DNA of 64,000 bases from NCBI GenBank assembly GCA_003167215.1, contig PMTV01000014.1, positions 110,285-174,284 on the forward strand. Reading direction: 5' to 3'. Positions 27,351 through 51,580 of this stretch are shown in pieces (position 1 is the first letter of the stretch; each line of letters starts with the position of its first letter). A model generated the notes under the pieces. That model was not told the DNA's origin and searched no databases. It was given only the letters and a program-made list of their open reading frames with translations. The stretch is from Acidobacteriota bacterium. Its GTDB lineage: Bacteria > Acidobacteriota > Terriglobia > Acidiferrales > UBA7541. Both the position numbers and the translations under genes were made by a program.

Positions 27351-29411
27351 TTAAGGCCGGAAGCAAGGCCCGGTGGACTTCGCGTCCGGCCAAGTGCCGT
27401 AATACTGCAAGATTTCTTTGGGGGGACTCAATTTGCTCCATTGCTTCTGGAATTCATCGAATGGCTTACCGCGCGCCAGGCGGGCGCGCCGTTCTTCGTC
27501 CCTAAGTTGCTTGGTTTTTTCCGCATCCAGTTTGCGGCGCACAGGATCGTATGCAATGCGATAGACATTTTGCGCCGTCCCATCCGAGATGATCTTCTTC
27601 TTCACGTCTTCCAGAATCTCCAGGGGATCGCGCTCGAGCGGATCTCCGTAGCCCGGGCCGCCGCCGCTGAAACCGAATAGCAGATCACCTTCCTCATACA
27701 CCTTGGGAGTGCGCGCAATTAACTCCATAGTCCAATTGCCTTCGATGGTGTGCCCCTCCAGGATCGTGCGGGAGTCCATGGTGAGGTTCGGATTGGCTTC
27801 CGCCATCTGCTTCAGCAAATCCGCCTTGCGTATGCTGATCCCAGGAATGGGCGAAGAAGCGTATCCGCCGAAAAGCGGCTGGCCTAGCGGGACCTTACTG
27901 CCGTTTCCCATGCACAGCGAAACCAGGTTGGGAACTTTGTGAATCATCCATTGCTGCACACCGCCGGAACCGCCGCGATGAAGCCCCGGGCCGCTCGAAT
28001 CTTTCCAATGCTGCGATAGCGTCACCGTAACGGGCAATTCGCTTTCCACCTGCTCGGAATCCGGCGCTCGGCCAAACGCGCACCACGCAAAGCCGTAAGC
28101 GTCCATGCCGTCTTCAGCGGAGCGCCCTCCTTGCCCTTGCGTGTTCAACGAAAACGAAAGTACATCCGAAACAGCGAGGTTCCACTGCGAGTGCCCCGCG
28201 CAAATTTGCGCTGTGTGCTGGCTACCGGGCGCCGCAGCCACTTGTCTCCAGAGTCCGGCGCTCGAAAATACCATCTTCGCGAAACTATTGTGCGTCGCGT
28301 TGCGCGCCTGCATTCCGATATACACGCAGCAACTCGTGGCCGCCATTTTGTCCGGGTTGAGGATGATTCCTTCCGGAAAAAGAAAATCGATGGGCGCGAA
28401 CGTGGAGCTGGATATCGGCAGGTCGTGGAAAATATATTCGTACATGAAATTGGCGATGTGGCCGACGACCGCTTGCGGATGCACGTTGTAGGAAGAGGGG
28501 TTTTCCGGCGAAGTGCCTTCAAAATCGAAGACAAGTCCGCCGTCTTTCTTCGTGAGCGTCAAATAGCAGGCGCGGACCAGGGCCGGCGTCCAGCCAATCG
28601 CATCATTAAACACCACGGCTCGGAATTTGCCGTCGGGAAGAGCTTTGATTTTCTTTCTGGCTCCCGCCTCGGCTGTTTCACTCATCTTGCGCATCAAGCC
28701 GACGACATAGTCCGGCCCGCGTTTTTCGGCAAGCTCCAGCACGCGGACTCGTACGCGGTCGGCAGTGGTACAACGCGCGCGCAAATCGGAAATGAACATG
28801 GCCGGCGCCCGCAAACCGTACACCGTGTAAAATTCCAGAAAATCATTGCGAATCTCGAAGTTCTCCCCGATTTTAATGGGAGGAAGATTCAACCCTTCCT
28901 CGAATCGCGATTTTGCGCTGACCGGCATGCCGCCGGGTTCAATGGCACCAGTTTCCGTGGTGTGCAGCGCAGCAGTCCCCCATCCCAGAAGCTGCCCTTT
29001 ATAAAAAATGGGCATGAGCGCCACTTGATCTGGATTGTGAATGCCGCCGTAGAGAGCGTCGTTGGTGTACCAGATATCCCCGTCGCGGATTCCCGGATTT
29101 TGTTCGTAATATTTCAAAATAAATTTAATGACAATAGGCTGAATGATGGCGTGCAGGTATGTGCCGCAGGATGCGTTTATCAGATCCCCGCCGGCAGTAA
29201 ACAGCGCCACCATGGAATCGCCCGAGACGCCGAAATAGCTTCGCGACGCTCGCACGAACACTTCCATGGCCTCATCGAGAATGTCGTTAGTCACCTGCAC
29301 GCCAATTTCGTAATCGCCCTGAGCGATTTTCGCCGCGCACTGTTTTTCATAAGGCGTGGCTGGGGCTGGTTTGAGCCATGCCAGTTTTTCGGCAAGAGTT
29401 GGAATAGGCAT
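27351..29411 (-). CDS. Hydantoinase B/oxoprolinase family protein; acetophenone-carboxylase beta-like subunit
   Basis: A 686-residue HyuB-family protein. Typical segments are FTAGGDLINASCGTYLHA, GDIWYTNDALYGGIHNPDQ and GLHRGGSGGVQQ in the C-terminal third. A GAGGAG SD sits at proper distance before the ATG. HyuB proteins pair with HyuA ATP-binding subunits in hydantoinases, oxoprolinases, and acetone and acetophenone carboxylases. Presence of a zinc-ribbon gamma subunit and two HyuA genes next to it points to the biotin-independent ketone carboxylase class and against a 5-oxoprolinase. It would form the carboxyphosphate/ketone-binding part of the complex. Confidence 0.85.
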   Translation of the reverse strand: MPIPTLAEKLAWLKPAPATPYEKQCAAKIAQGDYEIGVQVTNDILDEAMEVFVRASRSYFGVSGDSMVALFTAGGDLINASCGTYLHAIIQPIVIKFILKYYEQNPGIRDGDIWYTNDALYGGIHNPDQVALMPIFYKGQLLGWGTAALHTTETGAIEPGGMPVSAKSRFEEGLNLPPIKIGENFEIRNDFLEFYTVYGLRAPAMFISDLRARCTTADRVRVRVLELAEKRGPDYVVGLMRKMSETAEAGARKKIKALPDGKFRAVVFNDAIGWTPALVRACYLTLTKKDGGLVFDFEGTSPENPSSYNVHPQAVVGHIANFMYEYIFHDLPISSSTFAPIDFLFPEGIILNPDKMAATSCCVYIGMQARNATHNSFAKMVFSSAGLWRQVAAAPGSQHTAQICAGHSQWNLAVSDVLSFSLNTQGQGGRSAEDGMDAYGFAWCAFGRAPDSEQVESELPVTVTLSQHWKDSSGPGLHRGGSGGVQQWMIHKVPNLVSLCMGNGSKVPLGQPLFGGYASSPIPGISIRKADLLKQMAEANPNLTMDSRTILEGHTIEGNWTMELIARTPKVYEEGDLLFGFSGGGPGYGDPLERDPLEILEDVKKKIISDGTAQNVYRIAYDPVRRKLDAEKTKQLRDEERRARLARGKPFDEFQKQWSKLSPPKEILQYYGTWPDAKSTGPCFRP

Positions 29412-29435: not shown

Positions 29436-31556
29436 CTAGCTTTCCAGTATGCCGAGGCCTCGCTCATCAATCGAAAAACGCATCGCCGGCGGAACAACGA
29501 GCGTGGTGTATTCGCTCTCGACGATTGCAGGTCCTTCCACCACGTTTCCGGGACGCAGCAATTCGTAAGTAAAAATTGGCGTTGTACGAAAATCTTTCTC
29601 CGTCGTCCAGTACACTGGTCGCTCGGCTTTCCGCGCAGCCGCCGGGCTGTGCCCTTCCAGCGTCATTTTCGGCATTTCAACCTTCTTCGTCGGGACGATC
29701 GCCTTCAGGATGAAACTCTCGATGAAGATTCCACCTTCCGGGTTCACCACAAACGGGCTGAAGGCTTTGCTGAATTCCTTGTTAAACGCATCGCAGATGG
29801 CGCGAACGTCTTCTACCGAGTGAATCGCCAAGAGCGGGGAGAGCGCTCTTTTTACGTGAAACTGTCCGCCATAGAGCATGTCCAGCTCGAGAACGAACGA
29901 CGCATCGTTCAGATTCAAGCCGTCGCCGGTCAAATCCCGCCGTGCCTGCTCGATAAGGTTCTCCACCGTCACGTTGAAGACTGAGAATTCGTTGGATAGC
30001 TTTTGGGTACCGGGCTCCATGAGCGTGAGCTTTTTAGACACTTCGTAAACGTGCATGATATCCATGGTCGAAGACCCGAACGCGCAGAACACGGGAGAAA
30101 ACGCGAAGGTCACGGCTTTCGGAATATCGGCCTTATATCCTTCCGCATGCGTGGGGCCCGCACCGCCGCCGACGAAAAGAATGAATTCCTCAGGGCTGTA
30201 GCCGCGGAGATGAACTTCCTTCATGATCGCGGAAGCCATGTTGCCGTTGACGATTTTTCGTATGATCACAGCGCCTTCTTCCACGCTGATTCCGAGCGGC
30301 TTGGCGATCTTGTCGCGCACCGCCTGAATCGCGCGATTCTTGTCCAGTCGCATCTTCCCGCCGAAATAGTATTCCGGGTTGAGGTAGCCGAGGACCACAT
30401 CCGCGTCTGTCACCGTAGGCTCGCTTCCGCCAAGATTGAAACAAGCTGGGCCGGGAATCGAGCCGGCGCTCCGAGGACCCACCTGTAGGCGGTTCTCAAG
30501 CAGCTTGTTGACCGACGCGATCGAACCTCCCCCGGCGCCGATGGAAAGCGTCTTGATCATGGTGATGCCGACCATCCAGCGGTCAATGATGGGCCTGAAG
30601 TCGTAACTGCGCACGCTGTCTTTCACCACCAGGCCCACGTCGAAGCTGGTACCGCCCATGTCCGTCATCACCACATTTTGATATCCCAGAGTTTTTGCCA
30701 CATGATGCGCGCCCATTAGCCCGGATACTGGTCCGCTGTTGAACGTGCGGCTGGCAGCGGTGCGAAAGACTTCGGCGATTCCACCGGAACTCTGAATCAT
30801 GAGGAGCGGTTTGGAGTAGCCTTTCTCGCGCAGCTTGTCCCACATGGCGGAAAGTTCGATTTGCATGGACCGCTGCAGGTAGGCATCGAGAATTGCGGCC
30901 ATGGTTCGCTCGTACTCACCGAGCTTTCCAACCACTTGTCCGGCGAGGACCACCGGCAGATAGCCAATGTGAAATTCTTTGTACTCGTCGCGAATAATTT
31001 CCTTCACCCGTCGCTCGTTCACCGGATTCAGAAAACCCCAAAGCAACGAGACCACAAATCCGCGCGCACCACGGCTGGTGAGATAGCGAACTTTTTCACG
31101 CAGGTCGTTTTCATCAAGCGGCCGGATCACTCTGCCGCGCGAGTCCACGCGCTCTTTTACGCCGACGATCATGTCCCGCGGTATCAGCGGTTCCGGCTTG
31201 TTCTGAACGGCAAGATTCCTGCGCTCGGAAACACGCGTGCCGTCGATCCACTGTGCGCCCCGGCCGATCAACACTACGTCTTCATGGCCTTCGGTCGTGA
31301 TCAACCCCAAACGCGGGCCTTTCTTTTCAATCAGGCGGTTTAGCGCGATGGTTGTCGAGTAGCGGATCATTTCGATGCCCGGCAGCAGATCTTCAATCTT
31401 CATGCCCAGCGCTGCCGCACCGTCTTCAATCACGCGCGTAAAGCAGACGGAAAGATCGTACGGGGTCGTCGGAGACTTTTTGATCAGAGCCTTCCCGTTA
31501 TAGTTGAGGACCAGATCGGTGAAGGTCCCGCCGACATCGATATCGATAGAATTCAT
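29436..31556 (-). CDS. Hydantoinase A/oxoprolinase family protein; ketone carboxylase alpha-like subunit
   Basis: A 706-residue HyuA-family protein of the ASKHA nucleotide-binding fold. The N-terminal SIDIDVGGTFTDLVL is the phosphate-1 motif, followed by YDLSVCF, the central VVMTDMGGTSFDVGLV and the C-terminal FVGGGAGPTHAEGY. It would bind ATP to activate the ketone as an enol phosphate or bicarbonate as carboxyphosphate. The start overlaps the gamma subunit stop (ATGA), and HyuB follows after 24 bases. Together with 31967-33988 it gives two non-identical HyuA subunits, the alpha and alpha-prime arrangement described for acetophenone carboxylase. Confidence 0.85.
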   Translation of the reverse strand: MNSIDIDVGGTFTDLVLNYNGKALIKKSPTTPYDLSVCFTRVIEDGAAALGMKIEDLLPGIEMIRYSTTIALNRLIEKKGPRLGLITTEGHEDVVLIGRGAQWIDGTRVSERRNLAVQNKPEPLIPRDMIVGVKERVDSRGRVIRPLDENDLREKVRYLTSRGARGFVVSLLWGFLNPVNERRVKEIIRDEYKEFHIGYLPVVLAGQVVGKLGEYERTMAAILDAYLQRSMQIELSAMWDKLREKGYSKPLLMIQSSGGIAEVFRTAASRTFNSGPVSGLMGAHHVAKTLGYQNVVMTDMGGTSFDVGLVVKDSVRSYDFRPIIDRWMVGITMIKTLSIGAGGGSIASVNKLLENRLQVGPRSAGSIPGPACFNLGGSEPTVTDADVVLGYLNPEYYFGGKMRLDKNRAIQAVRDKIAKPLGISVEEGAVIIRKIVNGNMASAIMKEVHLRGYSPEEFILFVGGGAGPTHAEGYKADIPKAVTFAFSPVFCAFGSSTMDIMHVYEVSKKLTLMEPGTQKLSNEFSVFNVTVENLIEQARRDLTGDGLNLNDASFVLELDMLYGGQFHVKRALSPLLAIHSVEDVRAICDAFNKEFSKAFSPFVVNPEGGIFIESFILKAIVPTKKVEMPKMTLEGHSPAAARKAERPVYWTTEKDFRTTPIFTYELLRPGNVVEGPAIVESEYTTLVVPPAMRFSIDERGLGILES

Positions 31557-31939
31557 TCGGCGGCCTCCAGGCGCTGTTCGCGAATCACGAACTCTCCCTT
31601 TTGCAGTCTTTCTTTCAACCGGTCCACATCAATTTCTATATCGTGCGTGATGGGATGCCCGGGAGGCAGGTATTCCGTCTCCACTTGCGTACCGCAGCCC
31701 GGACAATAAAATTCGACGATGCGGACCCAAAGCGGGTCGGGAGAAAAATTGAATGCTCCGGAAACCAGCGGCGGATGAATTTCCCGTGGATCGCGATCGT
31801 GAACCAAACAGCCCTTTTTGTAATTCTCTCGGGCCGGGCCGATTACGCGATTGCAACGGTTACACATCCACTGTTCGCTATCGAGATCCAAATCGAGGTA
31901 CTCAGTGATGCGTAGACGATTTTTTTGCTGTGTGGCCAT
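31553..31939 (-). CDS. Acetone/acetophenone carboxylase gamma-like zinc-ribbon subunit
   Basis: A 128-residue protein with two CxxC pairs, CNRCNRVIG near residue 26 and FYCPGCGTQVE near residue 80, plus CLVHDRDPREIHPP between them. This is the pattern of the acetone carboxylase gamma subunit family, a small zinc-binding subunit. It ends in a charged tail (DVDRLKERLQKGEF). An AGAGGAAAG SD precedes the ATG. Its presence is the main reason to call the neighbouring HyuA/HyuB genes a ketone carboxylase and not a hydantoinase. Confidence 0.85.
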   Translation of the reverse strand: MATQQKNRLRITEYLDLDLDSEQWMCNRCNRVIGPARENYKKGCLVHDRDPREIHPPLVSGAFNFSPDPLWVRIVEFYCPGCGTQVETEYLPPGHPITHDIEIDVDRLKERLQKGEFVIREQRLEAAE

Positions 31940-31966: not shown

Positions 31967-33988
31967 CTAAACCTTTGGGGAAACGCGGCTGAGCGAGCCG
32001 TTTCCGAAACGGTCCATTATCATTTCCCATCCCTCGGGAATAAAATAGGTGCTGTTCACGTCTTCGAGCACTGCACACCCACTGACTCGGTTGCCGGGCC
32101 GCAATGCTTCCCAATTGTAAATTTGCGCTTCGCCTTTGCTGCTGCCCCACAAAACCTTGCGCGTCCCCTTGCGCGCGTGCGACGAATCGGGGCCTTGCAA
32201 CGGGCGTTCGACCAGCCGCGGCTTGGGCATCCCTTTCTTCACCGATACGCGGATCAGCTCGAGCGAAATCGGGCCGTCTGGCGCGCCTCCAGGATTCCCG
32301 AGGGCCTTGGCGAGCGCCGCTTGCAGATCCTTCTCGCTGCGCAGAGACGATTCCGAGCAAGGCACCGAGATTGAGCTGTGGCCGTTTCGAGATACATCCA
32401 TTTCGTAGGCGTAACTAATCCCATCAGGACGAATGCCTTCACCGAGAAGATCCTTCACGCCTTCCGCTTTCATTTCCTCGATCATCTGCCGAATTCGGAT
32501 GAGGCCGACATCTGAAATCGCGACCCCTGCTAGCGAGCCTTCGTACAGATGAGAAATGTCGGAGACAGAAGAGCCGAAAGCGCTGAATACGGGTCCCAGA
32601 GAAAATAATTGCACGCGATTGAGCCCCGCTTTTTCCGCTACGCCGCACGCGAACAAGCTGCCGTTACCTCCGTAAGCGAAGAGAATCGATTTCGACCAAT
32701 CCCGGTTCAGCCCTTTTTCGGTGCTGACGATCATGTTCGCGACAGATTCGAAGGCTCGGTCGAGGACGATCCGGCAGGCTTCCTCAATCGTCAAGTTCAG
32801 CGGCCGCGCCACTGATTCAGCAATCACCTTGCGAGCCAATTCCAGATCGATCGTTTTGGCTCCGCCAAGAAAATAATCCGGATTGATTAGTCCTGCTGCG
32901 ACGAACGCGTCGGTGAGCGTCGGCTGATCCCCTCCGAGCCCGTAACACGCAGGCCCTGGAAATGAACCCATGCTCTCCGGACCCAACTGAACACTCGCCT
33001 TTTCGGCATTCGGGAGAGGTTTCACCACGCTGCCGCCGCCCAATGCGATCGAATGCAAATCAGGAAGCGAGATCGCTACGGGGATGCCGAAAAAATCGGA
33101 TGGCCTGCGGTAGATCGGTTCGCCGTTGAGCAGCACGCTGATCTTCGCGGTGGTCCCGCCAATATCCATCGAGATCACGTCATTGAAACCGTAAGCCTTT
33201 GCCAGGTAGGCGCTGGCATGAATTCCCAGAATCGGTCCGGATTCGATCGTATCAATCGCCTTGGTCTTGGCGATTCCCGCCACGCCACCATTGATATGAC
33301 TCACCAAAAAAGTGCCGGTGTACCCGGCACTTTGGCGAAGGTCATCCTCAGCCTTGAACAGCGTCGCCGCCAGCGCTCCATGCGTGTACGTATTGATCAG
33401 CGCGGAATACGTGCGCGTTTGGTCCTCCGCGGATTTGGAAATATCGCTCCCGGCTAAGACCGGCACAGAACCCAGGAAATGATCCGGATACTGTTGGTCG
33501 ATGATTCGTTTGACGGCGATTTCCCGCCGGGGATCACGATGCGAACCTTCCAGGCTGACGCAGATGCGTCGCACGCCGCTTTCCAGAAGTTTGCGCGCGG
33601 CATTCATGATCTCGGGCTCGCCCGCAGAATCATTCACGCCGATTACATCCTGCTCGGATATCAGGCGATTTAAAACGCTGCTGCGGGGCTCTTGTCCATA
33701 AAGGTCTTTCTGGTGACCTTGGGAGACCAGCAAGCCGATGCGGGGGCCTCGCGATTCCGCCAGCACGTTGGAAGTGATCGTAGTGGACCAGCGAATCAAC
33801 TCCACGTTTTCGAGGAATTCATTCGTGCCGGGGAAATCCAGTTTCGCGGCTCCTCGGGACAGGCAGTCAAACAGGCAAACGGTCAAGTCGTGCGGGGTGG
33901 TATCCACTTTCACGCAGAAGATTTCTTCACCGCTAGTGAAAATCCCGTCCGTTAGCGTTCCGCCGACGTCAATGTCCACTGTCCACAC
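31967..33988 (-). CDS. Second hydantoinase A family protein; ketone carboxylase alpha-prime-like subunit
   Basis: About 673 residues. The ORF track starts at 34102 inside the upstream ligase gene, but the GTG at 33988 is preceded by AGGTGAGG at five bases and yields VWTVDIDVGGTLTDGIF, the normal HyuA N-terminus. The second phosphate motif is VISMDIGGTTAKISV, and AYGGNGSLFACGVAEKAG lies in the C-terminal half. It is paralogous to the HyuA at 29436 but clearly different, as the alpha-prime subunit of acetophenone carboxylase is. It is 23 bases after the ligase and 27 bases before the gamma gene. Confidence 0.85.
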   Translation of the reverse strand: MWTVDIDVGGTLTDGIFTSGEEIFCVKVDTTPHDLTVCLFDCLSRGAAKLDFPGTNEFLENVELIRWSTTITSNVLAESRGPRIGLLVSQGHQKDLYGQEPRSSVLNRLISEQDVIGVNDSAGEPEIMNAARKLLESGVRRICVSLEGSHRDPRREIAVKRIIDQQYPDHFLGSVPVLAGSDISKSAEDQTRTYSALINTYTHGALAATLFKAEDDLRQSAGYTGTFLVSHINGGVAGIAKTKAIDTIESGPILGIHASAYLAKAYGFNDVISMDIGGTTAKISVLLNGEPIYRRPSDFFGIPVAISLPDLHSIALGGGSVVKPLPNAEKASVQLGPESMGSFPGPACYGLGGDQPTLTDAFVAAGLINPDYFLGGAKTIDLELARKVIAESVARPLNLTIEEACRIVLDRAFESVANMIVSTEKGLNRDWSKSILFAYGGNGSLFACGVAEKAGLNRVQLFSLGPVFSAFGSSVSDISHLYEGSLAGVAISDVGLIRIRQMIEEMKAEGVKDLLGEGIRPDGISYAYEMDVSRNGHSSISVPCSESSLRSEKDLQAALAKALGNPGGAPDGPISLELIRVSVKKGMPKPRLVERPLQGPDSSHARKGTRKVLWGSSKGEAQIYNWEALRPGNRVSGCAVLEDVNSTYFIPEGWEMIMDRFGNGSLSRVSPKV

Positions 33989-34011
33989 AGCAACCTCACC
34001 TGGCCTGGGGA

Positions 34012-35919
34012 TTATTTCTTCTGGATTCGCAAAACTTGCGCACATGGTTTCGCTGCGTAAAGCTGATCGAGAGTTGCGGCACGTCGATTGAGAACCGCAC
34101 ACTGGTTTAGCGAGCCTTTGTCGGTGATTTCGCCGCCATCCAGTGAAGGCGGCTCCTGCACCACCATCGCTCTCGTGACGCGAGTGGAACTCCCTGTGGC
34201 ATTCACAGCAAAGCTCTCGAGCAACTCTTGAAAACGCCGGTGCACGTTTGGATGTCCGAAAATCTCTGCTGCGGATGAGGAGCGCTCAAGCCCCAAGCAA
34301 AGAGCGCGACATTCATCGATATCTCCAAAGATCATCAGGCCCACTTCATCTCGATCGTGGCCGGTTACAACCACGTCGCGGACAAATGGGGCGAAGTGGC
34401 TCAGAATCCTGCCGCGAAGAGCACCCACGTTGACCCATGTCCCGCTCGAAAGCTTGAAATCCTCTGAAAGTCGCCCATCAAACTCGAAACCTTTGTTCAC
34501 ATCGGACGGATCCACGAAACGAAGCGCATCTCCGAAGCTGTAGAACCCTTCTTGATCAAATGTCTTTCGCGTGAGTTCCGGTTGGCGCCAGTAACCTGGT
34601 GTTACATTTGGTCCGCGAACTCTCACTTCGAGTTTCTTGCCACATGGCACAAGTTTGGCCTCAACACCGGGAATAGGAATACCGACGACGCCTGCCCGGT
34701 CGGTTTCCCAGGTGGCTTGGATGGCCATAGGGGAAGTCTCCGTGGCGCCGAGGCCGGAGACCATCACGATTCGCTCGCCACAAGTCTCAAGCGCCAGGGC
34801 TCGGTAAGCATCCCAGACCGGCTGCGATAAGCCTGCGCCCGCATAAAACAAGAGACCCAGGCGGCGGAAGAAATTTTCACGAAGCTTTGTTTCTCCGCGC
34901 AGGGCCGGCAGCAGATCCTCATAGCCTTTAGGAACGTTGAAGTAAACCGTCGGAGAGATCTCGCGCAGATTGCGAATGGTTTCTTCGATGAATCCGGGAC
35001 CCGGCTTGCCGTCGTCAATATAAAAACTCCCACCATTGTAAAGGGCGATGCCCACGTTGTGGTTTCCGCCGAAGGTGTGATTCCAAGGAAGCCAGTCCAC
35101 CAGCACAGGAGGCTCGTCCTGCAGAAAACAAAATACCTGCGCGATCATTTGCTGATTGCAGCAGATCATCCGGTGCGTGTTGATGACAGCTTTGGGCATT
35201 CCGGTCGAACCGGAAGTGAAAAGAAACTTAGCCACGCTATCAGGCTTTATCTGTTGGCGCGCGGCAGCTAAGCCGGCTGTCGGCGCAGTAGCCAGGAGGT
35301 TGGCAAACAGGGTTGCCTTTCTCCCCTTTGGGGCAGCGCTCGTAACCACGAGCTCGGTATCCCTGCTGACAACTGCCTCGATAGCGCTGCCATACCGCTC
35401 GCCGTTCGAGGCAAATACCAAACCCGGTGTGAGGATGCCCAGCGTATGCCGCAGCCGGCCGAAATCTTTGGAAACCAGCGAATAGGCGGGCGAAAGGTGC
35501 GCTGTAGGAACTCCTACGTGCTGTCCAGCCAACATGAGCACCAAATGCTCGAGATCGTTCTCGGAGAGAATTGCTACGGGTCGCTCGGCCGACAGGCCTC
35601 GGTCCAGCAAAGCTTGTCCGACACTTTCCACTGCCGCGAGCACTTGTGCATAGGTAAGCCTTCGCCATTCCCTGCTCACATCCCTCTGAGCGGCGCAAAT
35701 TCTTTCCGGAAACGCCTTCGCCCAATGGACCAGGCGATCCGTAAGAACTTTCGGATACGGACCTAGCGCTTCATCTGGGCGCACCAGTAATGTTCCGTCG
35801 GCCAGCTTTTCAACGGACGCTCCGGAAGTCCGGAGCCGCACTTGGCGGACGCCCGCGCCCCCAATCCGGTGCTGCACGCGCGGGCTGTTCTTGGCGTGAC
35901 TCGAGTTCATTGTTTCCAT
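34012..35919 (-). CDS. Feruloyl-CoA synthase-like aryl-CoA ligase
   Basis: A 635-residue AMP-forming ligase of the feruloyl-CoA synthase type, marked by the N-terminal RPDEALGPYPKVLTDRL and the THLSPAYSLVSKDFGRLRH stretch. The P-loop is FLFTSGSTGMPKAV near residue 232 and a GLGATETSPM motif stands near residue 390. It would make the CoA ester of an aromatic acid. As first gene of the carboxylase operon it may activate the aroylacetate produced by the carboxylase, in the role the benzoylacetate-CoA ligase has in the acetophenone pathway; a cinnamate-type substrate is the alternative. Confidence 0.85.
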   Translation of the reverse strand: METMNSSHAKNSPRVQHRIGGAGVRQVRLRTSGASVEKLADGTLLVRPDEALGPYPKVLTDRLVHWAKAFPERICAAQRDVSREWRRLTYAQVLAAVESVGQALLDRGLSAERPVAILSENDLEHLVLMLAGQHVGVPTAHLSPAYSLVSKDFGRLRHTLGILTPGLVFASNGERYGSAIEAVVSRDTELVVTSAAPKGRKATLFANLLATAPTAGLAAARQQIKPDSVAKFLFTSGSTGMPKAVINTHRMICCNQQMIAQVFCFLQDEPPVLVDWLPWNHTFGGNHNVGIALYNGGSFYIDDGKPGPGFIEETIRNLREISPTVYFNVPKGYEDLLPALRGETKLRENFFRRLGLLFYAGAGLSQPVWDAYRALALETCGERIVMVSGLGATETSPMAIQATWETDRAGVVGIPIPGVEAKLVPCGKKLEVRVRGPNVTPGYWRQPELTRKTFDQEGFYSFGDALRFVDPSDVNKGFEFDGRLSEDFKLSSGTWVNVGALRGRILSHFAPFVRDVVVTGHDRDEVGLMIFGDIDECRALCLGLERSSSAAEIFGHPNVHRRFQELLESFAVNATGSSTRVTRAMVVQEPPSLDGGEITDKGSLNQCAVLNRRAATLDQLYAAKPCAQVLRIQKK

Positions 35920-42946: not shown

Positions 42947-43816
42947 TCAGTTCAACAGCATAGAAAGTTCCTGAGCTGCAGCGCGAAGTTGCGGGAGGAA
43001 TTTAGTCTGCAGCTCCTGGATGGAGAGGCGATGTGCGTGCGCCCCAACGTTCAGTGCCGCCACTACTTTTCCGCTTGGATTCTGGATGGGAACCGCCATG
43101 GAACGCAGACCAACTTCAAGTTCCTGATCGACGAGCGAGTAGCCGTTACGCAGGACGAGGCGCAGCGCCTGCCTTAATTTCTCCACGCTCACAATCGTTC
43201 GGTTCGTGTGGCGGGTGAGCCGAACGCGTTCAAAAAAAGACTCCAACTCGGCAGCCGGCAGGTTCGCCAGCAACACGCGGCCCATGGAGGTGCAAAACGC
43301 AGGCAATCGGCTGCCCACTCCCAGGTCGATGGACATGATGCGGGTTACGTTTGCGCGCGCCACATAGATGATATCGAGCTCTTCGAGAGTCGCGATAGAA
43401 CAGGATTCGTGCAACACGCGGCTGATATGTTCCAAAACAGGCTGGGCGGATGCCGCGAGCGGCATAGAGGAAATGTAGGAGTGGCCGAGTGCCAGGATAC
43501 GAGGCTGAAGAAAAAAGTGATGGCTGTCGTCGGAACCGGCAAAACCGAGTTTTGTAAGCGTGTAAAGACATCGGCGCACTGCTGCTCGCGAAAAACCCGT
43601 CTTGCTGCTCACTTGCGAGATGGTAAGCTGGCGCTTCTGCGTCGAGAAGGCCTGTATCACCGCCAAGCCGCGCGCCAAAGAGGTCATGAAGTTTGGATCC
43701 CCCGTGCAGTCATCGAAGAGCGTGGATGGCGTCAACAGTTCGGGAGCCGGTCTTCGAGCGGACGGTACACCTCGTGATTGTTTCTCGGCACCTGTGCGAG
43801 GATTGGCAGGGGACAT
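42947..43816 (-). CDS. IclR-family regulator (PcaR/PobR-like)
   Basis: A 289-residue protein with an N-terminal winged helix-turn-helix (SLARGLAVIQAFS, LTISQVSSKTGFSRAAVRRCLYTL) and a C-terminal ligand-binding domain (PLAASAQPVLEHISRVLHESCSIA, GSRLPAFCTSMGRVLLA). The MTSLARGLAVIQAF start of the DNA-binding domain and overall pattern follow the Pca/Pob subgroup that responds to aromatic acids. A 40-residue tail precedes the HTH. It is divergent from pcaHG with 220 bases between, the typical arrangement for control of protocatechuate ring cleavage. Confidence 0.88.
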   Translation of the reverse strand: MSPANPRTGAEKQSRGVPSARRPAPELLTPSTLFDDCTGDPNFMTSLARGLAVIQAFSTQKRQLTISQVSSKTGFSRAAVRRCLYTLTKLGFAGSDDSHHFFLQPRILALGHSYISSMPLAASAQPVLEHISRVLHESCSIATLEELDIIYVARANVTRIMSIDLGVGSRLPAFCTSMGRVLLANLPAAELESFFERVRLTRHTNRTIVSVEKLRQALRLVLRNGYSLVDQELEVGLRSMAVPIQNPSGKVVAALNVGAHAHRLSIQELQTKFLPQLRAAAQELSMLLN

Positions 43817-43917: not shown

Positions 43918-44036
43918 TCGTCTTAACTTCTGCGTTTTCGCCTGTGCATTAAAAGCGGTGCGGAGACCACCCTGCTTTTGTAACATCGCAGGAAGACTCG
44001 GGTTCCGTGACTCGGCGGTTGCAAGGAGGAAGTGGC

Positions 44037-44741
44037 GTGGCCAAGATTGTTACATACCGGAGGCCAAATCCGGACTCGCAGCCCCCTTATCTGCATCCAA
44101 CGTATATCTCCTCTATCAAACGCGCGCCTTCAAAATCTCTGATTTATTTGCCGCACACGCTCTCGGAAGTCACCGGACCCTCGTTCACGGAGGCGGCAAT
44201 TGATGTGAAAGCCTGCGACCTCACGCGCCAACACTCGGGCAATCCGCTCGGCGAACGCATCATCGTCAGCGGGCGGGTAATGGATGAAGATGGAAGGCCG
44301 CTGCAGCATTCACTCATCGAAGTCTGGCAGGCCAATGCCGCTGGCCGGTATTTGCATAAGCGCGACCAGCATAATGCTCCTCTGGATCCGAACTTCACCG
44401 GATCCGGGCACACCCTGACGGACGCGGAGGGACGCTACCGATTCGTAACCATACGCCCCGGCTCATATCCCTGGGGGAACCATCACAACGCCTGGCGGCC
44501 GGCACACATCCATTTCTCGCTTTTCGGCCCGGCCTTCGCATCGCGTTTGGTGACTCAGATGTATTTTCCAGGCGATCCGCTGTTGCCCTTCGATCCAATC
44601 TTCAACTGCACGGCGGATGAGAACGCACGCAATCGGCTAATCTCGCTGTTTGATTGGGAAACCACAATTCCATCCCAGGCGCTGGGCTTCAAATTCGACA
44701 TTATATTGAGCGGGCGCGAAGCCACACCCATGGAGCCTTAG
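44037..44741 (+). CDS. pcaH: Protocatechuate 3,4-dioxygenase beta subunit
   Basis: About 234 residues. The ORF track starts at a GTG at 44007, but the GTG at 44037 has a perfect AGGAGG at seven bases and begins VAKIVTYRRPNPDSQ, so I use it. The intradiol signature IVSGRVMDEDGRPLQHSLIEVWQANAAG is split here only in quoting. The non-heme Fe(III) ligands are visible as Tyr in GRYLHKRD, Tyr in GSYPWGN and the two His of RPAHIHFS. With PcaG it opens protocatechuate to 3-carboxy-cis,cis-muconate in the cytoplasm, a step of the beta-ketoadipate pathway. Confidence 0.92.
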   Translation: MAKIVTYRRPNPDSQPPYLHPTYISSIKRAPSKSLIYLPHTLSEVTGPSFTEAAIDVKACDLTRQHSGNPLGERIIVSGRVMDEDGRPLQHSLIEVWQANAAGRYLHKRDQHNAPLDPNFTGSGHTLTDAEGRYRFVTIRPGSYPWGNHHNAWRPAHIHFSLFGPAFASRLVTQMYFPGDPLLPFDPIFNCTADENARNRLISLFDWETTIPSQALGFKFDIILSGREATPMEP

Positions 44742-44742
44742 A

Positions 44743-45318
44743 TTGAGTCGACAGCCAACAACATCACAAACCGTCGGCCCATTTTTCTCCATCGGTCTGA
44801 CGAGGATGAAACACGATGACTTGGTGGGTGCCGGCACATCCGGAGAGCGCGTAGTTATTGAAGGCCACGTCCTGGATGGCGACGGAGAACCGGTGCCCGA
44901 CGCTATTATTGAAATCTGGCAGGCAAACTCATATGGGAAGTACGCGCATCCCGAAGATCAGCAGGACAAGCCGCTGGAGCCAAGCTTTTCAGGCTATGGG
45001 CGCATCCCGACTGATGACGAGGGACAGTTTCGCTTCACGACGATCAAGCCGGGACCAGTGCCGGATCTGGATGGAAAGTTTCAGGCTCCCCACATTGTCG
45101 TCTCCGTGTTCGCGCGCGGATTGTTGCGCCGCTTGGTGACGCGGATTTATTTCTCTGATGAGCCGGCGAACGCGACAGACTTTGTGCTGAATTTGGTGGA
45201 AGCATCGCGGTGCGAGACGTTAATTGCCAAAAAGATCGCGGGCGTGAGCGGCAAGCTTGAATGGAATGTCATCCTGCAGGGACCAAACGAGACCGTTTTT
45301 TTCGATTGTGGACTTTGA
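44743..45318 (+). CDS. pcaG: Protocatechuate 3,4-dioxygenase alpha subunit
   Basis: A 191-residue alpha subunit that starts with TTG one base after the pcaH stop. The N-terminal TSQTVGPFFSIGL and GHVLDGDGEPVPDAIIEIWQ are typical. The iron ligands of the beta subunit are missing (FQAPHIVVSVF instead of PAHIHFS), as expected for the non-catalytic partner. It assembles with PcaH into the (alpha-beta-Fe) oligomer. No pcaB, pcaC or pcaD is seen here, so the later steps must be encoded elsewhere, apart from the PcaIJ-like transferase at 24.5 kb. Confidence 0.92.
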   Translation: MSRQPTTSQTVGPFFSIGLTRMKHDDLVGAGTSGERVVIEGHVLDGDGEPVPDAIIEIWQANSYGKYAHPEDQQDKPLEPSFSGYGRIPTDDEGQFRFTTIKPGPVPDLDGKFQAPHIVVSVFARGLLRRLVTRIYFSDEPANATDFVLNLVEASRCETLIAKKIAGVSGKLEWNVILQGPNETVFFDCGL

Positions 45319-45348
45319 CGCTCTCAGAGCGTGCTTTCCTATCTTTTT
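45318..45348 (+). terminator. Putative terminator after pcaG
   Basis: ACGCTC/GAGCGT form a six-base stem with a TCA loop that overlaps the pcaG stop, followed by a pyrimidine-rich GCTTTCCTATCTTTTT. It separates pcaG from the convergent methyltransferase gene. Confidence 0.5.
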
Positions 45349-46447
45349 AGTTCCAAACACGCTTGGCCGTTTCAACCACCAGCCGCAGCTTGGCCCACTG
45401 TTCGTCCTCGGTTAACAGATTTCCTTCCATGGTAGAGGCGAACCCGCACTGCGGGCTCAGTGCGAGCTTGTCGATCGGAAAATGGCGCCCCGCCTGCTCG
45501 ATTCTCCGGACGAGATCGTCGCCATTCTCCAGTTGCGGCAGTTTCGAGCTAACCAACCCAAGCACGACCGTCTTGTTTTTAGGAATGAAGCGCAGAGGTT
45601 CAAAGGTTCCGGAGCGTTCGTCGTCGTATTCGAGGAGGAAGCGATCCGCGGCCATGGTGGTGAACAGTTTTTCAGCGATAGCGTCGTATCCGCCTTCGGC
45701 GTACCAGTGGCTGCGATTGTTTCCACGGCAAAGGTGCACCGCTAGCGTAACTCCAGGGCGCCGCGCTGCCTCAAAACAAGCGTTGTCGGCGCTGATGGAA
45801 TCGTCGAGCAGCGCGTCCGGATCAACTTTCATCTCCGCGCGGATCCATTCGCGCCATTTCGGGTCGAGGTAATAGCTGTAGCGCGGTGCATCGATCTGAA
45901 TATATTTCACGCCCTCGGCGGCTAGCCTGGCAAGCTCCGTTTTCATGATGCCGACGATGTCCCACAACAGCGCGGAATGATTTTCGTACACTTTGTCGGT
46001 GACGCCGCGCTTGAAGGAAATAGCCGGGAACTGCGTAGCGCTGGGCAGGGTCATTTTAATCGCACCGGGGCTATTCGCTTTCAGGAACGAGAGTTCATGT
46101 CCGGTGAGCGGGCGCACCTGGCGAAGCTTTGAAATCACGATACCGGTTACGCTGCTTTCACGAGCGCCTTTGGCTTCGCCAACTTTCCAGGAGCGCGCCA
46201 CAGCATCGCCCATGTCGAAACCTTCGACCGCATCGGTGAAATCGCTCATAAAATTTTGCCGGCGCAGTTCGCCATCTGTAAAAATCTTCAATCCCAATTC
46301 CTTCTGCTTGGCGAGAACGCGGAGGATTTCGCGGTCCTCAATCTCACGGAGGCGCTGCGGATTTTCCGCAGCATTTCGCCGGGCCTCTAGAAGCTCTTGC
46401 GGACGCAGAAAACTCCCTACTTGATCGGCTCGATATTCTGTGGACAT
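45347..46447 (-). CDS. Cobalamin-independent methionine synthase-like protein (MetE C-terminal domain family)
   Basis: A 366-residue single-domain relative of MetE. The N-terminus RADQVGSFLRPQELL is the usual start of this family, the zinc ligands are suggested by HLCRGNN and LSPQCGFAS, and KYIQIDAPRYSYYL lies in the barrel core. A GGGGAAGG SD precedes the ATG. It would transfer a methyl group to a thiol such as homocysteine; short forms lack the N-terminal MetE half and often accept other methyl donors. Position between pcaHG and vanA raises the idea of handling methyl groups from methoxy-aromatics, but VanA releases formaldehyde, so this is uncertain. Confidence 0.85.
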   Translation of the reverse strand: MSTEYRADQVGSFLRPQELLEARRNAAENPQRLREIEDREILRVLAKQKELGLKIFTDGELRRQNFMSDFTDAVEGFDMGDAVARSWKVGEAKGARESSVTGIVISKLRQVRPLTGHELSFLKANSPGAIKMTLPSATQFPAISFKRGVTDKVYENHSALLWDIVGIMKTELARLAAEGVKYIQIDAPRYSYYLDPKWREWIRAEMKVDPDALLDDSISADNACFEAARRPGVTLAVHLCRGNNRSHWYAEGGYDAIAEKLFTTMAADRFLLEYDDERSGTFEPLRFIPKNKTVVLGLVSSKLPQLENGDDLVRRIEQAGRHFPIDKLALSPQCGFASTMEGNLLTEDEQWAKLRLVVETAKRVWN

Positions 46448-46640
46448 TCGCTGGCCTTCCCCGGAGTTCCGTTTTACGAGTTGATGAGCGTAGCGGCTGC
46501 GGCGCGCGGTGTCAATTAGGCCGACGCGAGGGACTCAAAAATCCGCGGAGAGGCGCCGGATTGTCGCTGGACTTGCACTTATGGCAAGATGCGCTTGCAT
46601 GTCGTGGTACGAAACACGAGCCACTGCAAGGAGCGCTGCG

Positions 46641-47654
46641 ATGTTTCTGCGAGACGCTTGGTACGCAATCTCCTGGGATCACGAAATCAAGCACGCGCCG
46701 TTTGGGCGCACGGTTTGCGGCGAGCCCATCGTGCTCTATCGCCGAACCAACGGAGCGCTCTCGGCTTTTGAAGACTGCTGCCCGCACCGCCTGCTTCCGC
46801 TCTCCAAGGGCTATCTGAAAGGCGACCACTTGGTCTGCAAGTATCACGGCCTGGAATTCGACGAGTGCGGCCAATGTGTTTGGATGCCCGGCCAGCAAGG
46901 GATTCACAAGGAAGCCAAGATGCGGATTTATCCGGTAGCAGAACGCCATCGCTTCGTTTGGGTGTGGATCGGCGATCCCGCGCTGGCGGACGAAAAAAAG
47001 ATTCCCGATCTACGCTGGTGCTCCGATCCCAAATGGATCTTCGAAGGAAGCACCTATCACGTGAAATGCAATTACCAGCTTCTGGTGGACAACTTAATGG
47101 ACTTGTCACACGAAACGTACGTGCATCCTTCGAGCATCGGCCAGCACGAGATCGTGGAGGCGCCGATCAAGGTTGAATCGGACGACGCTTCTGTGACCGT
47201 GACGCGATGGATGTACAACATCGATCCGCCGCCTTTCTGGGCCGCAAATCTGAAGTCGCAGGAAAAATGCGACCGCTGGCAGATTTGTCAGTTTTCACTG
47301 CCTGCGAACGTGATGATCGACGTGGGCGTGGCGCTGGCCGGCACGGGGGCTTCGCAAGGAGATCGCTCGCGCGGCGTCACGGGAATCGTGGTGAATCTAA
47401 TGACGCCCGAAACGGAAACTTCCACCTGGTATCACTGGGGCATGGCACGCGATTTTCAGACTGGCGATCGCGGCCTTACGATGCGCATCCGCGATGGGCA
47501 GGCGGCTGTGTTTACCGAAGATCTGGAAATTTTGAACTCGCAGCAGGAAAACATTCTTCGCCGAACGGACCGCGATCTGCTCAATTTAAAGATCGATGCC
47601 GGCGGTGTGAATGCGCGTCGAATTATCGAGCACGAGCTTTCCCGGCAACGATGA
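46641..47654 (+). CDS. vanA: Vanillate O-demethylase oxygenase (Rieske, VanA-like)
   Basis: About 337 residues. The ORF track begins at 46509, but the ATG at 46641 follows AAGGAG and gives MFLRDAWYAISWDHEI, the standard VanA start. The Rieske [2Fe-2S] ligands are Cys47-x-His49 and Cys66-x2-His69 (CPHR, CKYHG). The mononuclear iron site is in NLMDLSHETYVHPS. It removes the methyl of vanillate or a similar methoxybenzoate as formaldehyde to give the catechol, here protocatechuate, feeding PcaHG. No VanB-type reductase lies nearby. A strong terminator follows the stop. Confidence 0.85.
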   Translation: MFLRDAWYAISWDHEIKHAPFGRTVCGEPIVLYRRTNGALSAFEDCCPHRLLPLSKGYLKGDHLVCKYHGLEFDECGQCVWMPGQQGIHKEAKMRIYPVAERHRFVWVWIGDPALADEKKIPDLRWCSDPKWIFEGSTYHVKCNYQLLVDNLMDLSHETYVHPSSIGQHEIVEAPIKVESDDASVTVTRWMYNIDPPPFWAANLKSQEKCDRWQICQFSLPANVMIDVGVALAGTGASQGDRSRGVTGIVVNLMTPETETSTWYHWGMARDFQTGDRGLTMRIRDGQAAVFTEDLEILNSQQENILRRTDRDLLNLKIDAGGVNARRIIEHELSRQR

Positions 47655-48368: not shown

Positions 48369-50546
48369 CTACTTCGCTGCGCTGTGAGCGCTTTCTGCTT
48401 TCGTTTCGTTGGCGCGCGAAATCACGTAGGCACGAACGGATTCGGCATCTCGCCGTGAAAGTTCCTTCGCGAAGGAAACCATCCCATTCGGTTGGAGCAA
48501 GCCGTTCAGGACGATCTCGAACCACTGCTCGTTCGCCAGCGCGCTCGAATATCGCAGGTCTGGAAGGACCCCGCCGCTGACGGCGACATCGCCATGGCAT
48601 CCGGAACAAAATCGCTGGTATAGACGCTTACCGTTCTCGATGGTTGCTGCATTTGCCGTCGATTTAGGAGGATTTAAAACGGGCATGTCGATTTCTTGCA
48701 CGGGTGGCAGAGTCGAGTCCCCACCTAATTTGAAAGCAAGCATGCGTCCGATGTTTGGTCTTCTCCCAGCTTTCAAGGCGATCTCGCCCGTGGCCAACGC
48801 AAACACTCCGCCCCAACCGGAAAGCACCGCGAGATATTGTTCGCCCTTCACTTCGTAGGACACAGGGCCCGCCATTACACTCGTTTGAACCGCCATCGAC
48901 CATACTTTTTCGCCAGTGTCTGCGCGATACGCTTCGAAATGCCCATCCGCAGTTCCCTCGAAAACAAGATTGCCTGCGGTCGAAAGCGCACCGCCATTCC
49001 AGGGCACTGGGCGTTGCACACTCCAAACTTGTTTTTGCTGAATTGGGTCCCACGCGACCAAGCGGCCGGTTATGTTTTTGAGAATCGTCGTTTTGACTTT
49101 TGGATCTTGAGGCATGCCCGCGGCTGCGAAATCGATGCCATCATTCGTCGCGAGCGATTTCCATTCGAATTGCGGATCAGACTTGTACAGAAAACCAGCC
49201 TCCTGAATTGGAATGTAAACGAGTCCCGTGAGCGGGCTATAGGACATAGGCTGCCAACTGTGCGCGCCCAGCGGTCCCGGAACGACAGGCGTGGGATCCT
49301 GTCCCCTGGAATAACGCGCACTCGCGTTTTCCACCGGACGCCCAGTCTTTATATCGATCGCGCTCGCCCAGTTGACGAATGTGTACGGCTTTGCGGAAAT
49401 AAGCGCGCCTGTCGTGCGATCGAGCACGTAGAAGAATCCGTTTTTCGGGGCGTGGAACAAAATTTTCCGAGCCTGCCCACCAATTGGAATATCAGCGAGG
49501 ATGATTTGCTCGTCGGAATCGTAATCCCAATCATCCGCCGGATCTTCCTGGTAATGCCAGACGTATTCTCCCGTCTCCGGTTTGAGCGCGACGATTGAGC
49601 AAGTAAGAAGACCGTCTTCGCGCTTCGGATTCCGGTACTTTTCGTTCCACGGGCCGCCGTTCCCAGTCCCGATGTAGAGCAAATCAAGTTCAGGGTCGTA
49701 GACAATCGCGTCCCAAACTGTTCCGCCGCCGCCGTGCTTCCACCAATCTCCGCTCCACGTCTTTGCAGCCTGTTCAAGGATTGGGCTCTCAAAAGGTTTC
49801 GAAGGATCGCCCGGCACGGTGTAGAAACGCCAAACCAGACTGCCCGTTTCGGCGTCATACGCGGAGACGTAGCCGCGGACTCCCATCTCCGCCCCGCCGT
49901 TACCGATGATCACATTTCCCTTCACCACTCTCGGCGCGCCAGTGATCGTGTACCGCCATTTAGGGTCGATTGTCAAAGTCTCCCACACCTTATTCCCTGT
50001 TGCGGCATCGAGTGCGATCAGCCGGCCATCCAGTGTGCCGAAGAATATTTTTCCGTGCCACGCTGCTACGCCACGATTGACCACATCGCAACATGCGTTC
50101 ACACCCCATTCCGGCGGAACTTTCGGATCGTAGCTCCATAGCAACGCGCCGGTGGCGGCATCGAGAGCGAAAACTTTGCTCCACGCGGAAGTGAAATACA
50201 TTCTTCCGTCAACAACCAGAGGAGTTGCCTCCTGTCCGCGTCGCGTGTCCAGATCGAAATGCCACGCGAGTCCCAATTGTGCGACATTGTGGTCGTCGAT
50301 GTCTTTCAAGGTGCTGAAGCGCTGTTCGTTATATGTGCGGCCGTAGCTCATCCAGTTCCCCGGCTCTCGATCGGCGTTCGTAATTCGCGTGTCGTCAACG
50401 TCTGCCGCTTTCGCGCCGCTGTTCTCCGGCGATTCAACTGGCTTGCGAGAGCTGCGACTGCACCCCGAAATCGCCGCTAGGGCGACACAAATTGTGACAA
50501 TGGAGGAAATGCGGAAGGTAGTGTAAGTTCGTCCCATGCAATTCAT
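48369..50546 (-). CDS. PQQ-dependent alcohol dehydrogenase lipoprotein with C-terminal heme domain
   Basis: About 725 residues. The track starts at 50642, but the ATG at 50546 gives a basic N-terminus, hydrophobic stretch and lipobox AISGC (Cys29), so it is probably a periplasm-facing lipoprotein. The eight-bladed PQQ propeller shows W-motif repeats (ALDAATGALLWSYD), the adjacent Cys pair NACCDVV that stacks on PQQ, and a DDWDYDSDEQ segment around the catalytic Asp. The heme motif CSGCH is near the C-terminus. It oxidises primary or secondary alcohols and passes electrons to cytochrome c. The DYD pattern resembles lanthanide-type relatives. Confidence 0.85.
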   Translation of the reverse strand: MNCMGRTYTTFRISSIVTICVALAAISGCSRSSRKPVESPENSGAKAADVDDTRITNADREPGNWMSYGRTYNEQRFSTLKDIDDHNVAQLGLAWHFDLDTRRGQEATPLVVDGRMYFTSAWSKVFALDAATGALLWSYDPKVPPEWGVNACCDVVNRGVAAWHGKIFFGTLDGRLIALDAATGNKVWETLTIDPKWRYTITGAPRVVKGNVIIGNGGAEMGVRGYVSAYDAETGSLVWRFYTVPGDPSKPFESPILEQAAKTWSGDWWKHGGGGTVWDAIVYDPELDLLYIGTGNGGPWNEKYRNPKREDGLLTCSIVALKPETGEYVWHYQEDPADDWDYDSDEQIILADIPIGGQARKILFHAPKNGFFYVLDRTTGALISAKPYTFVNWASAIDIKTGRPVENASARYSRGQDPTPVVPGPLGAHSWQPMSYSPLTGLVYIPIQEAGFLYKSDPQFEWKSLATNDGIDFAAAGMPQDPKVKTTILKNITGRLVAWDPIQQKQVWSVQRPVPWNGGALSTAGNLVFEGTADGHFEAYRADTGEKVWSMAVQTSVMAGPVSYEVKGEQYLAVLSGWGGVFALATGEIALKAGRRPNIGRMLAFKLGGDSTLPPVQEIDMPVLNPPKSTANAATIENGKRLYQRFCSGCHGDVAVSGGVLPDLRYSSALANEQWFEIVLNGLLQPNGMVSFAKELSRRDAESVRAYVISRANETKAESAHSAAK

Positions 50547-50710
50547 GCTAGTTGTGTCGCAGTCGCGGCAAACTTCTTTTCCGGAAAGAATGGGAGAGTG
50601 TACATCAACATCGGGCTCCACAGCTCCGGACGCCGCGGCCACACGGTGCCGGAAAAAGCTGACGTGGACGGAATCGTTGGGAATTAAATCCTATTAAACT
50701 GGGAAACGTA

Positions 50711-51580
50711 ATGAATACAACCGCAGGACTCAAAATTGAAAATCTCATCGCCATCGATACTCACGTTCACATCGAGTCGGATGGCGGCCACGAGGTGAAC
50801 GAAGCTGCACGCAAGTATTTCGGTGCCACCGGCGATGTTCCTAGCGGCCCGGCCATTGCTGAATATTATCGATCCCGAAAGATCGCGTGTGTCGTCTTCT
50901 CCGTTGACGAGCGGCTGACCGGCAGGAAGCAGATCCCAAATGACGAAGTTGCGGCTTTGGCCGCGGCGAACAGCGACATCATGATCGCGTTTGCCAGCGT
51001 GGATCCAACCCGCGGCCCCGAAGCCGTGAGCGAAGCTCGCCGTTTGATCGCTGCCGGTGGAATTCGTGGATTCAAACTGCACCCCCCGATCCAGCAATTT
51101 CACGCCAACGACCGAATAGCCTATCCGTTCTACGAAGTCCTCGCCGAAGCGCGCATGCCTGTGATTTTTCACACCGGGCACAGCGGCATCGGCACCGGCA
51201 TGCCTGGCGGCGGAGGTGTGCGGTTGAAGTACGGCAATCCCATGGATATCGACGACGTTGCGGTTGATTTCCCGGATATGCCCATCATCATGGCCCATCC
51301 GTCATTTCCCTGGCAGGATGAAGCCATTTCCATCTGCTTGCATAAACCGCAGGTCTATATCGACCTATCAGGTTGGTCGCCAAAATATTTTTCGCCGACG
51401 CTCATCCAGTACGCAAACACTCTGCTCAAACAGAAAATCCTCTTTGGTTCTGACTTCCCTCTCATCACGCCCGACAGGTGGTTAGCCGATTTCGAAAAAA
51501 TTGCCATTCGAGACGACGTTCGCCCTCTGATCCTGAAACAAAACGCAATTCGCCTCCTGAGACTGCATAAAGCGGATTAG
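50711..51580 (+). CDS. Amidohydrolase 2 family protein, aryl-beta-ketoacyl-CoA hydrolase-like (CouO type)
   Basis: A 289-residue TIM-barrel metal-dependent hydrolase. Metal-binding motifs are DTHVH (residues 16-20), HTGHSG near residue 155, AHPSFPWQDE near residue 195 and FGSDFPLITP near residue 240. The whole pattern follows proteins annotated as 4-hydroxyphenyl-beta-ketoacyl-CoA hydrolase, the CouO-type enzyme of hydroxycinnamate beta-oxidation in Rhodococcus, which releases a hydroxybenzoate and acetyl-CoA. That is exactly the step needed after CoA activation of an aroylacetate. Function is inferred from family resemblance. Confidence 0.72.
   Translation: MNTTAGLKIENLIAIDTHVHIESDGGHEVNEAARKYFGATGDVPSGPAIAEYYRSRKIACVVFSVDERLTGRKQIPNDEVAALAAANSDIMIAFASVDPTRGPEAVSEARRLIAAGGIRGFKLHPPIQQFHANDRIAYPFYEVLAEARMPVIFHTGHSGIGTGMPGGGGVRLKYGNPMDIDDVAVDFPDMPIIMAHPSFPWQDEAISICLHKPQVYIDLSGWSPKYFSPTLIQYANTLLKQKILFGSDFPLITPDRWLADFEKIAIRDDVRPLILKQNAIRLLRLHKAD

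Follow-up and report, generated by a model that had tools for sequence, protein, structure and literature searches.

The window, the whole stretch of 64,000 nucleotides that we analysed, comes from an Acidobacteriota bacterium with a genome of 3.78 Mb and carries on its plus strand, at 50711–51580, an intact open reading frame that runs from ATG to stop and encodes a protein of 289 residues. Orthologues from other acidobacteria are 81, 77 and 72% identical to this protein and homologues from other phyla 53–67%; identities of up to 81% argue that this is not a chance open reading frame, and its status as a real gene is confirmed. Pfam Amidohydro_2 (PF04909) matches the protein over its full length (residues 15–285, E=3.3e-46), in keeping with the TIM-barrel fold and size of about 290 residues expected of CouO/HpeF hydrolases. 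No NCBIfam model matched it, and as two CouO-like proteins run as controls likewise matched none, the missing model is uninformative. The genes most similar to it lie in cou-like operons, and the product of one of these is annotated as a "4-hydroxyphenyl-beta-ketoacyl-CoA hydrolase", which bears out the family resemblance claimed in the initial annotation. Hence, judged by its sequence, the product is very probably a hydrolase of the CouO/HpeF type, predicted to be a metal-dependent enzyme that acts on aroylacetyl-CoA (4-hydroxyphenyl-beta-ketoacyl-CoA).

The hydrolase gene stands singly, divergent from a gene encoding a PQQ-dependent alcohol dehydrogenase with a C-terminal cytochrome c (48369–50642, minus strand) and convergent with glnD. 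It is part of neither a cou-type operon (hydratase plus dehydrogenase) nor an hpe-type operon (kinase, carboxylase and phosphatase), which is a feature of context and not an enzymatic trait; its orthologues do have such operons. The PQQ dehydrogenase could oxidize aryl alcohols (1-arylethanols) to ketones that feed acetophenone carboxylase. Between the dehydrogenase and the hydrolase gene is a perfect inverted repeat, TTCTTTTCCGGAAAGAA (50574–50590), with 6-bp arms and a 5-bp spacer, a find expected by chance about one time in three. The genome contains a single distant paralogue of the hydrolase (36% identity), the locus of which (L047, G000:C66:93000–111000) also has crotonases, a CoA-transferase-like open reading frame, a 3-hydroxyacyl-CoA dehydrogenase and a BoxB-like protein of the benzoyl-CoA route that scores below its family cut-off, an apparent second aromatic-CoA pathway.

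Genes of protocatechuate catabolism are neighbours of the hydrolase gene. The pcaH and pcaG genes of protocatechuate 3,4-dioxygenase (44007–45318, plus strand; TIGR02422 and TIGR02423) and the gene of an IclR regulator of the PcaR/PcaU/PobR family (42947–43816, minus strand; TIGR02431) all scored above cut-off, as did 3-oxoacid CoA-transferase subunits A and B of the PcaIJ/ScoAB type (24527–25877, minus strand; TIGR02429 and TIGR02428), for which the lower beta-ketoadipate pathway and an alternative supply of CoA are candidate roles. A Rieske oxygenase with a VanA_C domain (46509–47654, plus strand; PF19112, E=5.2e-53, and PF00355) is a possible O-demethylase of aromatic acids. PobA is encoded in the genome and PcaD on contig C10, both above cut-off. 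Given PobA, PcaGH, PcaR, PcaD and the CoA-transferase, the aromatic acids that the route proposed below would release can be used. A MetE-like (Meth_synt_2) protein is encoded near the pca genes (45347–46447, minus strand), and proteins 45% identical to it are encoded directly after the CouO-type gene in one acidobacterial genome (G125; L043, 10635–11711) and directly before the Fcs ligase gene in another (G291; L169, 9228–10307). This recurrent partner may be a methyltransferase that O-demethylates methoxylated aromatics.

An operon at 26–36 kb, on the minus strand, has the gene order apcABCDE, in agreement with the apcABCD(E) order described previously (PMC5214803). The apcA gene (31967–34102) encodes the alpha-prime subunit (E=3e-159 to the alpha chain of PDB entry 5L9W), apcB (31553–31939) a small Cys4 subunit of 128 residues (E=2.7e-50 to the beta chain) and apcC (29436–31556), which apcB overlaps by 4 bp, the alpha subunit, called gamma in the PDB naming. 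ApcC matched 5L9W with E=6.3e-300 versus 3.8e-109 for acetone carboxylase, and its match to NF042975 had E=0 but 1088 bits against a cut-off of 1500. The apcD gene (27351–29411) encodes the beta subunit, delta in the PDB naming (5L9W E=2.2e-257; NF042976 897 bits, cut-off 1500), and the fifth gene (26322–27347) an ApcE-like subunit of the URO-D superfamily (NF042977 ApcE E=8.3e-24, below cut-off; PF01208 E=8.9e-17). By these matches the operon is a complete set of acetophenone carboxylase genes that resembles 5L9W more than it does acetone carboxylase, with scores that stay below the NCBIfam equivalog cut-offs. We abandoned the idea of a URO-D protein standing in for ApcE, as the protein matches the NCBIfam ApcE model; from these sequences the epsilon subunit of acetophenone carboxylase seems to have a fold of the uroporphyrinogen-decarboxylase type. 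A Haloterrigena plasmid also has a URO-D gene inside an apc operon (L162, 12632–13600), its product being 26% identical over 210 residues to that of 26322–27347.

The first gene of the apc operon encodes an AMP-forming ligase of the feruloyl-CoA synthase family (34012–35919, minus strand; NF009232), which is proposed to make aroylacetyl-CoA, hydroxycinnamoyl-CoA or both. The genome has no other ligase of this family. The end of the gene lies no more than about 35 bp from where apcA probably starts, so that it is apparently cotranscribed with the carboxylase genes. G+C content is uniform across apc, ligase and hydrolase, and hence no recent import of these genes is evident.

The ligase and the hydrolase are genetic partners within the phylum. 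Of 297 Acidobacteriota genomes five, including that of the window, encode a hydrolase with 72% identity or more; these five belong to five different families. A ligase of the window type was found in seven genomes, among them all five with the hydrolase. The hypergeometric probability of this co-occurrence is about 1e-9 (5e-8 without the window genome), a figure made optimistic by the relatedness of the genomes. Two homologues of 43–45% identity come from acidobacterial genomes that lack the ligase and fall outside the hydrolase clade described below. In two of the five genomes (G125 and G014; L043 and L051) the order is enoyl-CoA hydratase/3-hydroxyacyl-CoA dehydrogenase (ECH/HCDH), ligase, hydrolase, with the ligase adjoining the hydrolase; in a third (G187, L042) the hydrolase gene immediately follows ECH/HCDH. 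In genome G172 the ligase adjoins ECH/HCDH. In the window genome, where hydrolase and ligase are 15 kb apart, the hydrolase likewise has as partner a CoA ligase for hydroxycinnamates or beta-ketoacids. Acetophenone carboxylase was found at E<=1e-150 in none of the 297 sampled genomes besides the window's own. As orthologues sit behind ECH/HCDH and ligase and the other genomes with close orthologues lack Apc, the usual and ancestral role of this hydrolase in Acidobacteriota is probably hydroxycinnamate side-chain removal.

These arrangements make a serious contender, though one we rate somewhat short of even, of the reading that the hydrolase acts only in hydroxycinnamate beta-oxidation, partnered by the Fcs-like ligase and by a FadB/FadJ-type protein encoded elsewhere, that a separate thiolase cleaves the Apc product and that the two loci lie close together by coincidence. 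The genome encodes several thiolases (for example L155, 11071–12258, and L156, 12442–13635), and for Aromatoleum aromaticum the literature assigns the cleavage to a thiolase described as "so far unknown" (PMC4729919). However, the only Fcs-family ligase of the genome heads the apc operon, no thiolase is encoded in or beside that operon, and the closest ECH/HCDH has a ligase and a thiolase of its own and no link to the hydrolase. The ECH/HCDH required on the hydroxycinnamate side of the reading we prefer lies about 186 kb away in an island of fatty-acid type, a point against that reading.

Assignment of the protein to the CouO/HpeF type, common to this reading and to the one we prefer, was pursued through the neighbourhoods and phylogeny of its homologues. 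Full-length homologues of 51–59% identity were found on plasmids by tblastn. Those of Rhizobium sp. Q54, Rhizobium sp. TH2, Phaeobacter, Terrarubrum, Paracoccus and Peteryoungia are accompanied by a feruloyl-CoA synthase or AMP-binding ligase and a crotonase, usually with an SDR and a MarR regulator; those of R. opacus and Streptomyces by a ligase, an SDR and MaoC; and those of P. putida YC-AE1 and R. leguminosarum BT01 lie in Hpe-type clusters (biotin carboxylase, HAD phosphatase and an acetoacetate-CoA-ligase-like protein). Context was scored for 99 homologues with identities of 50% or more: it was of the cou type in 62, of the hpe type in five, with a CoA-transferase in five and with Apc in one, the remaining 26 being without the tested markers (thresholds were set by us and some contigs are short). 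As anchor for CouO we used the couN-O-M(-L)-type operons of actinobacteria, which stand in for the CouO sequence of Rhodococcus jostii RHA1 (WP_011597356.1). Nineteen of the 20 such operons examined have the order SDR, hydrolase, MaoC, ligase, and in three an ATTGA-N5-TCAAT repeat, of the type described for CouR (PMC4737184), is directly upstream of couN. Their hydrolases are 47–51% identical to the window protein over the full length.

In a maximum likelihood tree with L039, L045 and L046 as outgroup, the hydrolases of couNOM-type, cou-Fcs-type and hpe-type contexts formed, together with the window protein, one clade of 41 (support 100/99). Within it the window protein grouped with three acidobacterial orthologues (100/100), and these lay inside a set of eight (97/96) in which cou and hpe contexts are mixed. 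The five hpe-type proteins represented five separate changes, all forced by supported branches (at least four in a larger quick tree). It follows that CouO-type hydrolases have passed several times from one kind of pathway to the other, with five separate recruitments into ketone-carboxylase clusters of the biotin type. In five actinobacterial operons (L083, L088, L096, L115 and L124) the partner of the CouO-type hydrolase is a CoA-transferase of the 3-oxoacid type, which suggests a third way of making beta-ketoacyl-CoA. That the window protein serves some other beta-ketoacyl-CoA, such as the product of a CoA-transferase route unrelated to lignin aromatics, is unlikely; the window does encode a CoA-transferase of this kind, but its hydrolase clusters with the members linked to Fcs, ECH/HCDH and hpe genes and not with the CoA-transferase-linked ones, and its genomic neighbours are pca genes.

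The initial annotation had asked for an alignment of the metal ligands, and all five expected residues (HxH, His, His, Asp) are conserved: H18, H20, H154, H196 and D248 showed no variation in two alignments, of 25 and 34 homologues, and all the metal-ligand motifs were present in 98 of the 99 homologues sharing 50% identity or more. In CouO the aspartate ligand is reportedly D257, for which a result with a D257N variant is said to exist. The AlphaFold2 model of the hydrolase (pLDDT 90.2, pTM 0.90) gave as first Foldseek match BB4693 of Bordetella bronchiseptica (PDB 3IRS, TM 0.75; also 3K4W), an uncharacterized protein of 23% identity that is the nearest solved structure by sequence, profile and fold. 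BB4693 was found with E=7.6e-22 in the single-sequence search and with E=4e-33 in the profile search, versus 1.5e-9 for gamma-resorcylate decarboxylase and 7e-9 for ACMSD. Closer kinship to either of the latter enzymes, which the initial annotation had named as the observation that would count against it, did not appear, both being weaker in every comparison (single-sequence search, profile and Foldseek), and was rejected. It is thus very improbable that the protein is one of the decarboxylases and hydratases of the superfamily (the group of gamma-resorcylate decarboxylase, 5-carboxyvanillate decarboxylase, ACMSD and 4-oxalomesaconate hydratase), with a ring carboxylate or a ring-cleavage product near pca as its substrate, as, although the superfamily is shared, protocatechuate genes are nearby and such enzymes occur among the weaker matches, none fell below E=0.4 in the single-sequence search, BB4693 outranked two of them by profile and fold, and CouO-type homologues reach 53–81% identity.

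LigY is a C-C hydrolase of the amidohydrolase superfamily and is also among the profile and fold matches of the window protein; it therefore provides a precedent for the retro-Claisen hydrolysis that we propose. In that reaction one metal ion held by H18, H20, H154, H196 and D248 would activate a water molecule that attacks the aryl ketone carbon with acetyl-CoA enolate as the leaving group. The C-C bond of aroylacetyl-CoA (3-oxo-3-arylpropanoyl-CoA) would thereby be cut to give a free aromatic acid plus acetyl-CoA, so that the hydrolase would replace a thiolase and a thioesterase. ApcABCDE would supply the substrate by converting an aryl methyl ketone to aroylacetate, which the Fcs-like ligase at the operon head would activate; aroylacetyl-CoA may also come from hydroxycinnamates. 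PobA or the Rieske enzyme would then convert the released acid, of the 4-hydroxybenzoate or vanillate type, to protocatechuate, the ring of which PcaGH would cleave. A hydrolase of the CouO/HpeF type cleaving aroylacetyl-CoA is, we believe, the likely explanation of the window gene.

The uses to which the hydrolase is put call for separate judgements. Use in hydroxycinnamate breakdown is fairly probable, use in the Apc route has slightly better than even chances, and use of the one enzyme in both is a plausible but doubtful outcome. Because a complete apc operon headed by the same ligase is nearby, the hydrolase is the best candidate for the last step of the Apc pathway, a link drawn from location. 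The initial annotation held that the hydrolase closes the carboxylase pathway: the complete apcABCDE operon, the CoA ligase and a cleavage step otherwise unassigned in the window fit this well, but use of the hydrolase there stays a candidate assignment for a gene that is transcribed alone 15 kb outside the operon, has no detected operator in common with it and has close orthologues in Apc-free genomes. A search of the ligase, hydrolase and pca promoters for a shared operator or upstream motif gave nothing above chance, and no sigma-70-like promoter was found. At other loci Apc beside a CouO-type gene was seen in one weak case, that of Prauserella salsuginis (L076), where an Apc-like cluster (ApcD 41%) lies about 6 kb from a CouO-like gene with an apparent transposase-like open reading frame between them, and no clear CouO-type gene was seen annotated near the four plasmid Apc clusters examined. 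Substrate preference must also be considered. The A. aromaticum Apc acts on acetophenone, propiophenone and fluoroacetophenones, preferring unsubstituted or fluoro-acetophenones, and that strain degrades 4-hydroxyacetophenone by a different pathway (PMC4729919). A similar preference here would lead to benzoate, which does not enter PcaGH, and not to a protocatechuate precursor, and this counts against the proposed route.

Three known systems bear on the proposed route. CouO of R. jostii RHA1, which acts in the beta-oxidative deacetylation of p-hydroxycinnamates and yields an aromatic acid (PMC4737184), shares with the window protein the amidohydrolase superfamily, the HxH/H/H/D metal site, a cinnamate-type acyl-CoA ligase partner and a product that feeds protocatechuate, the likeness being drawn through the couN-O-M-type homologues and not the RHA1 sequence. 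Unlike couO, the window gene is outside any ligase/hydratase/dehydrogenase operon and the ligase is in an acetophenone carboxylase operon. In the acetovanillone and 4-hydroxyacetophenone pathway of R. rhodochrous GD02 the hydrolase HpeF likewise would follow ketone carboxylation and CoA ligation, although the carboxylase is biotin dependent and its substrate phosphorylated (HpeHI, HpeCBA, HpeD), whereas that of the window is of the biotin-free Apc type; in the accessible part of that report the HpeF activity is presented as proposed rather than assayed (PMC9618137). The apcABCDE-bal operon of A. aromaticum EbN1 (acetophenone carboxylase and benzoylacetate-CoA ligase) matches that of the window in its five subunit genes and their order, and it too includes a CoA ligase. 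It differs in that in the window the ligase gene comes before apcA and encodes a member of the feruloyl-CoA synthase family, and in that the window's candidate cleaving enzyme is a hydrolase giving the free acid in place of the thiolase giving benzoyl-CoA that is assumed for EbN1.

That one hydrolase could serve both ketone carboxylation and hydroxycinnamate beta-oxidation, as the initial annotation suggested, is sound as an idea, given the five origins of hpe-like contexts in the tree and the 95% identity of HpeF to CouO stated in the GD02 report (PMC9618137). The latter makes it a precedented idea and not a new one, and for the window gene the Apc half of it keeps its candidate standing. The hydrolase itself is ordinary, a further example of a known enzyme family that removes acetyl-CoA from the side chains of lignin-type aromatics. 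New, if confirmed, would be the pairing of an Fcs ligase and a CouO-type hydrolase with the biotin-independent Apc, a combination of which we found no report in the literature searched. Tentatively, we picture a hybrid aerobic pathway that turns aryl methyl ketones into free aromatic acids and in which biotin-free ApcABCDE is joined to a captured Fcs-family ligase and a CouO-type hydrolase, the ligase–hydrolase pair being common to hydroxycinnamate breakdown and cleavage being by the hydrolase and not a thiolase. For the enzyme of Apc pathways that cleaves aroylacetyl-CoA, described in the literature as "so far unknown" (PMC4729919), the window hydrolase is a concrete candidate. Such a hydrolase would be a transferable part for lignin engineering, and repeated recruitment of CouO-type hydrolases into ketone-carboxylating pathways would explain how bacteria assemble routes for lignin-derived ketones.
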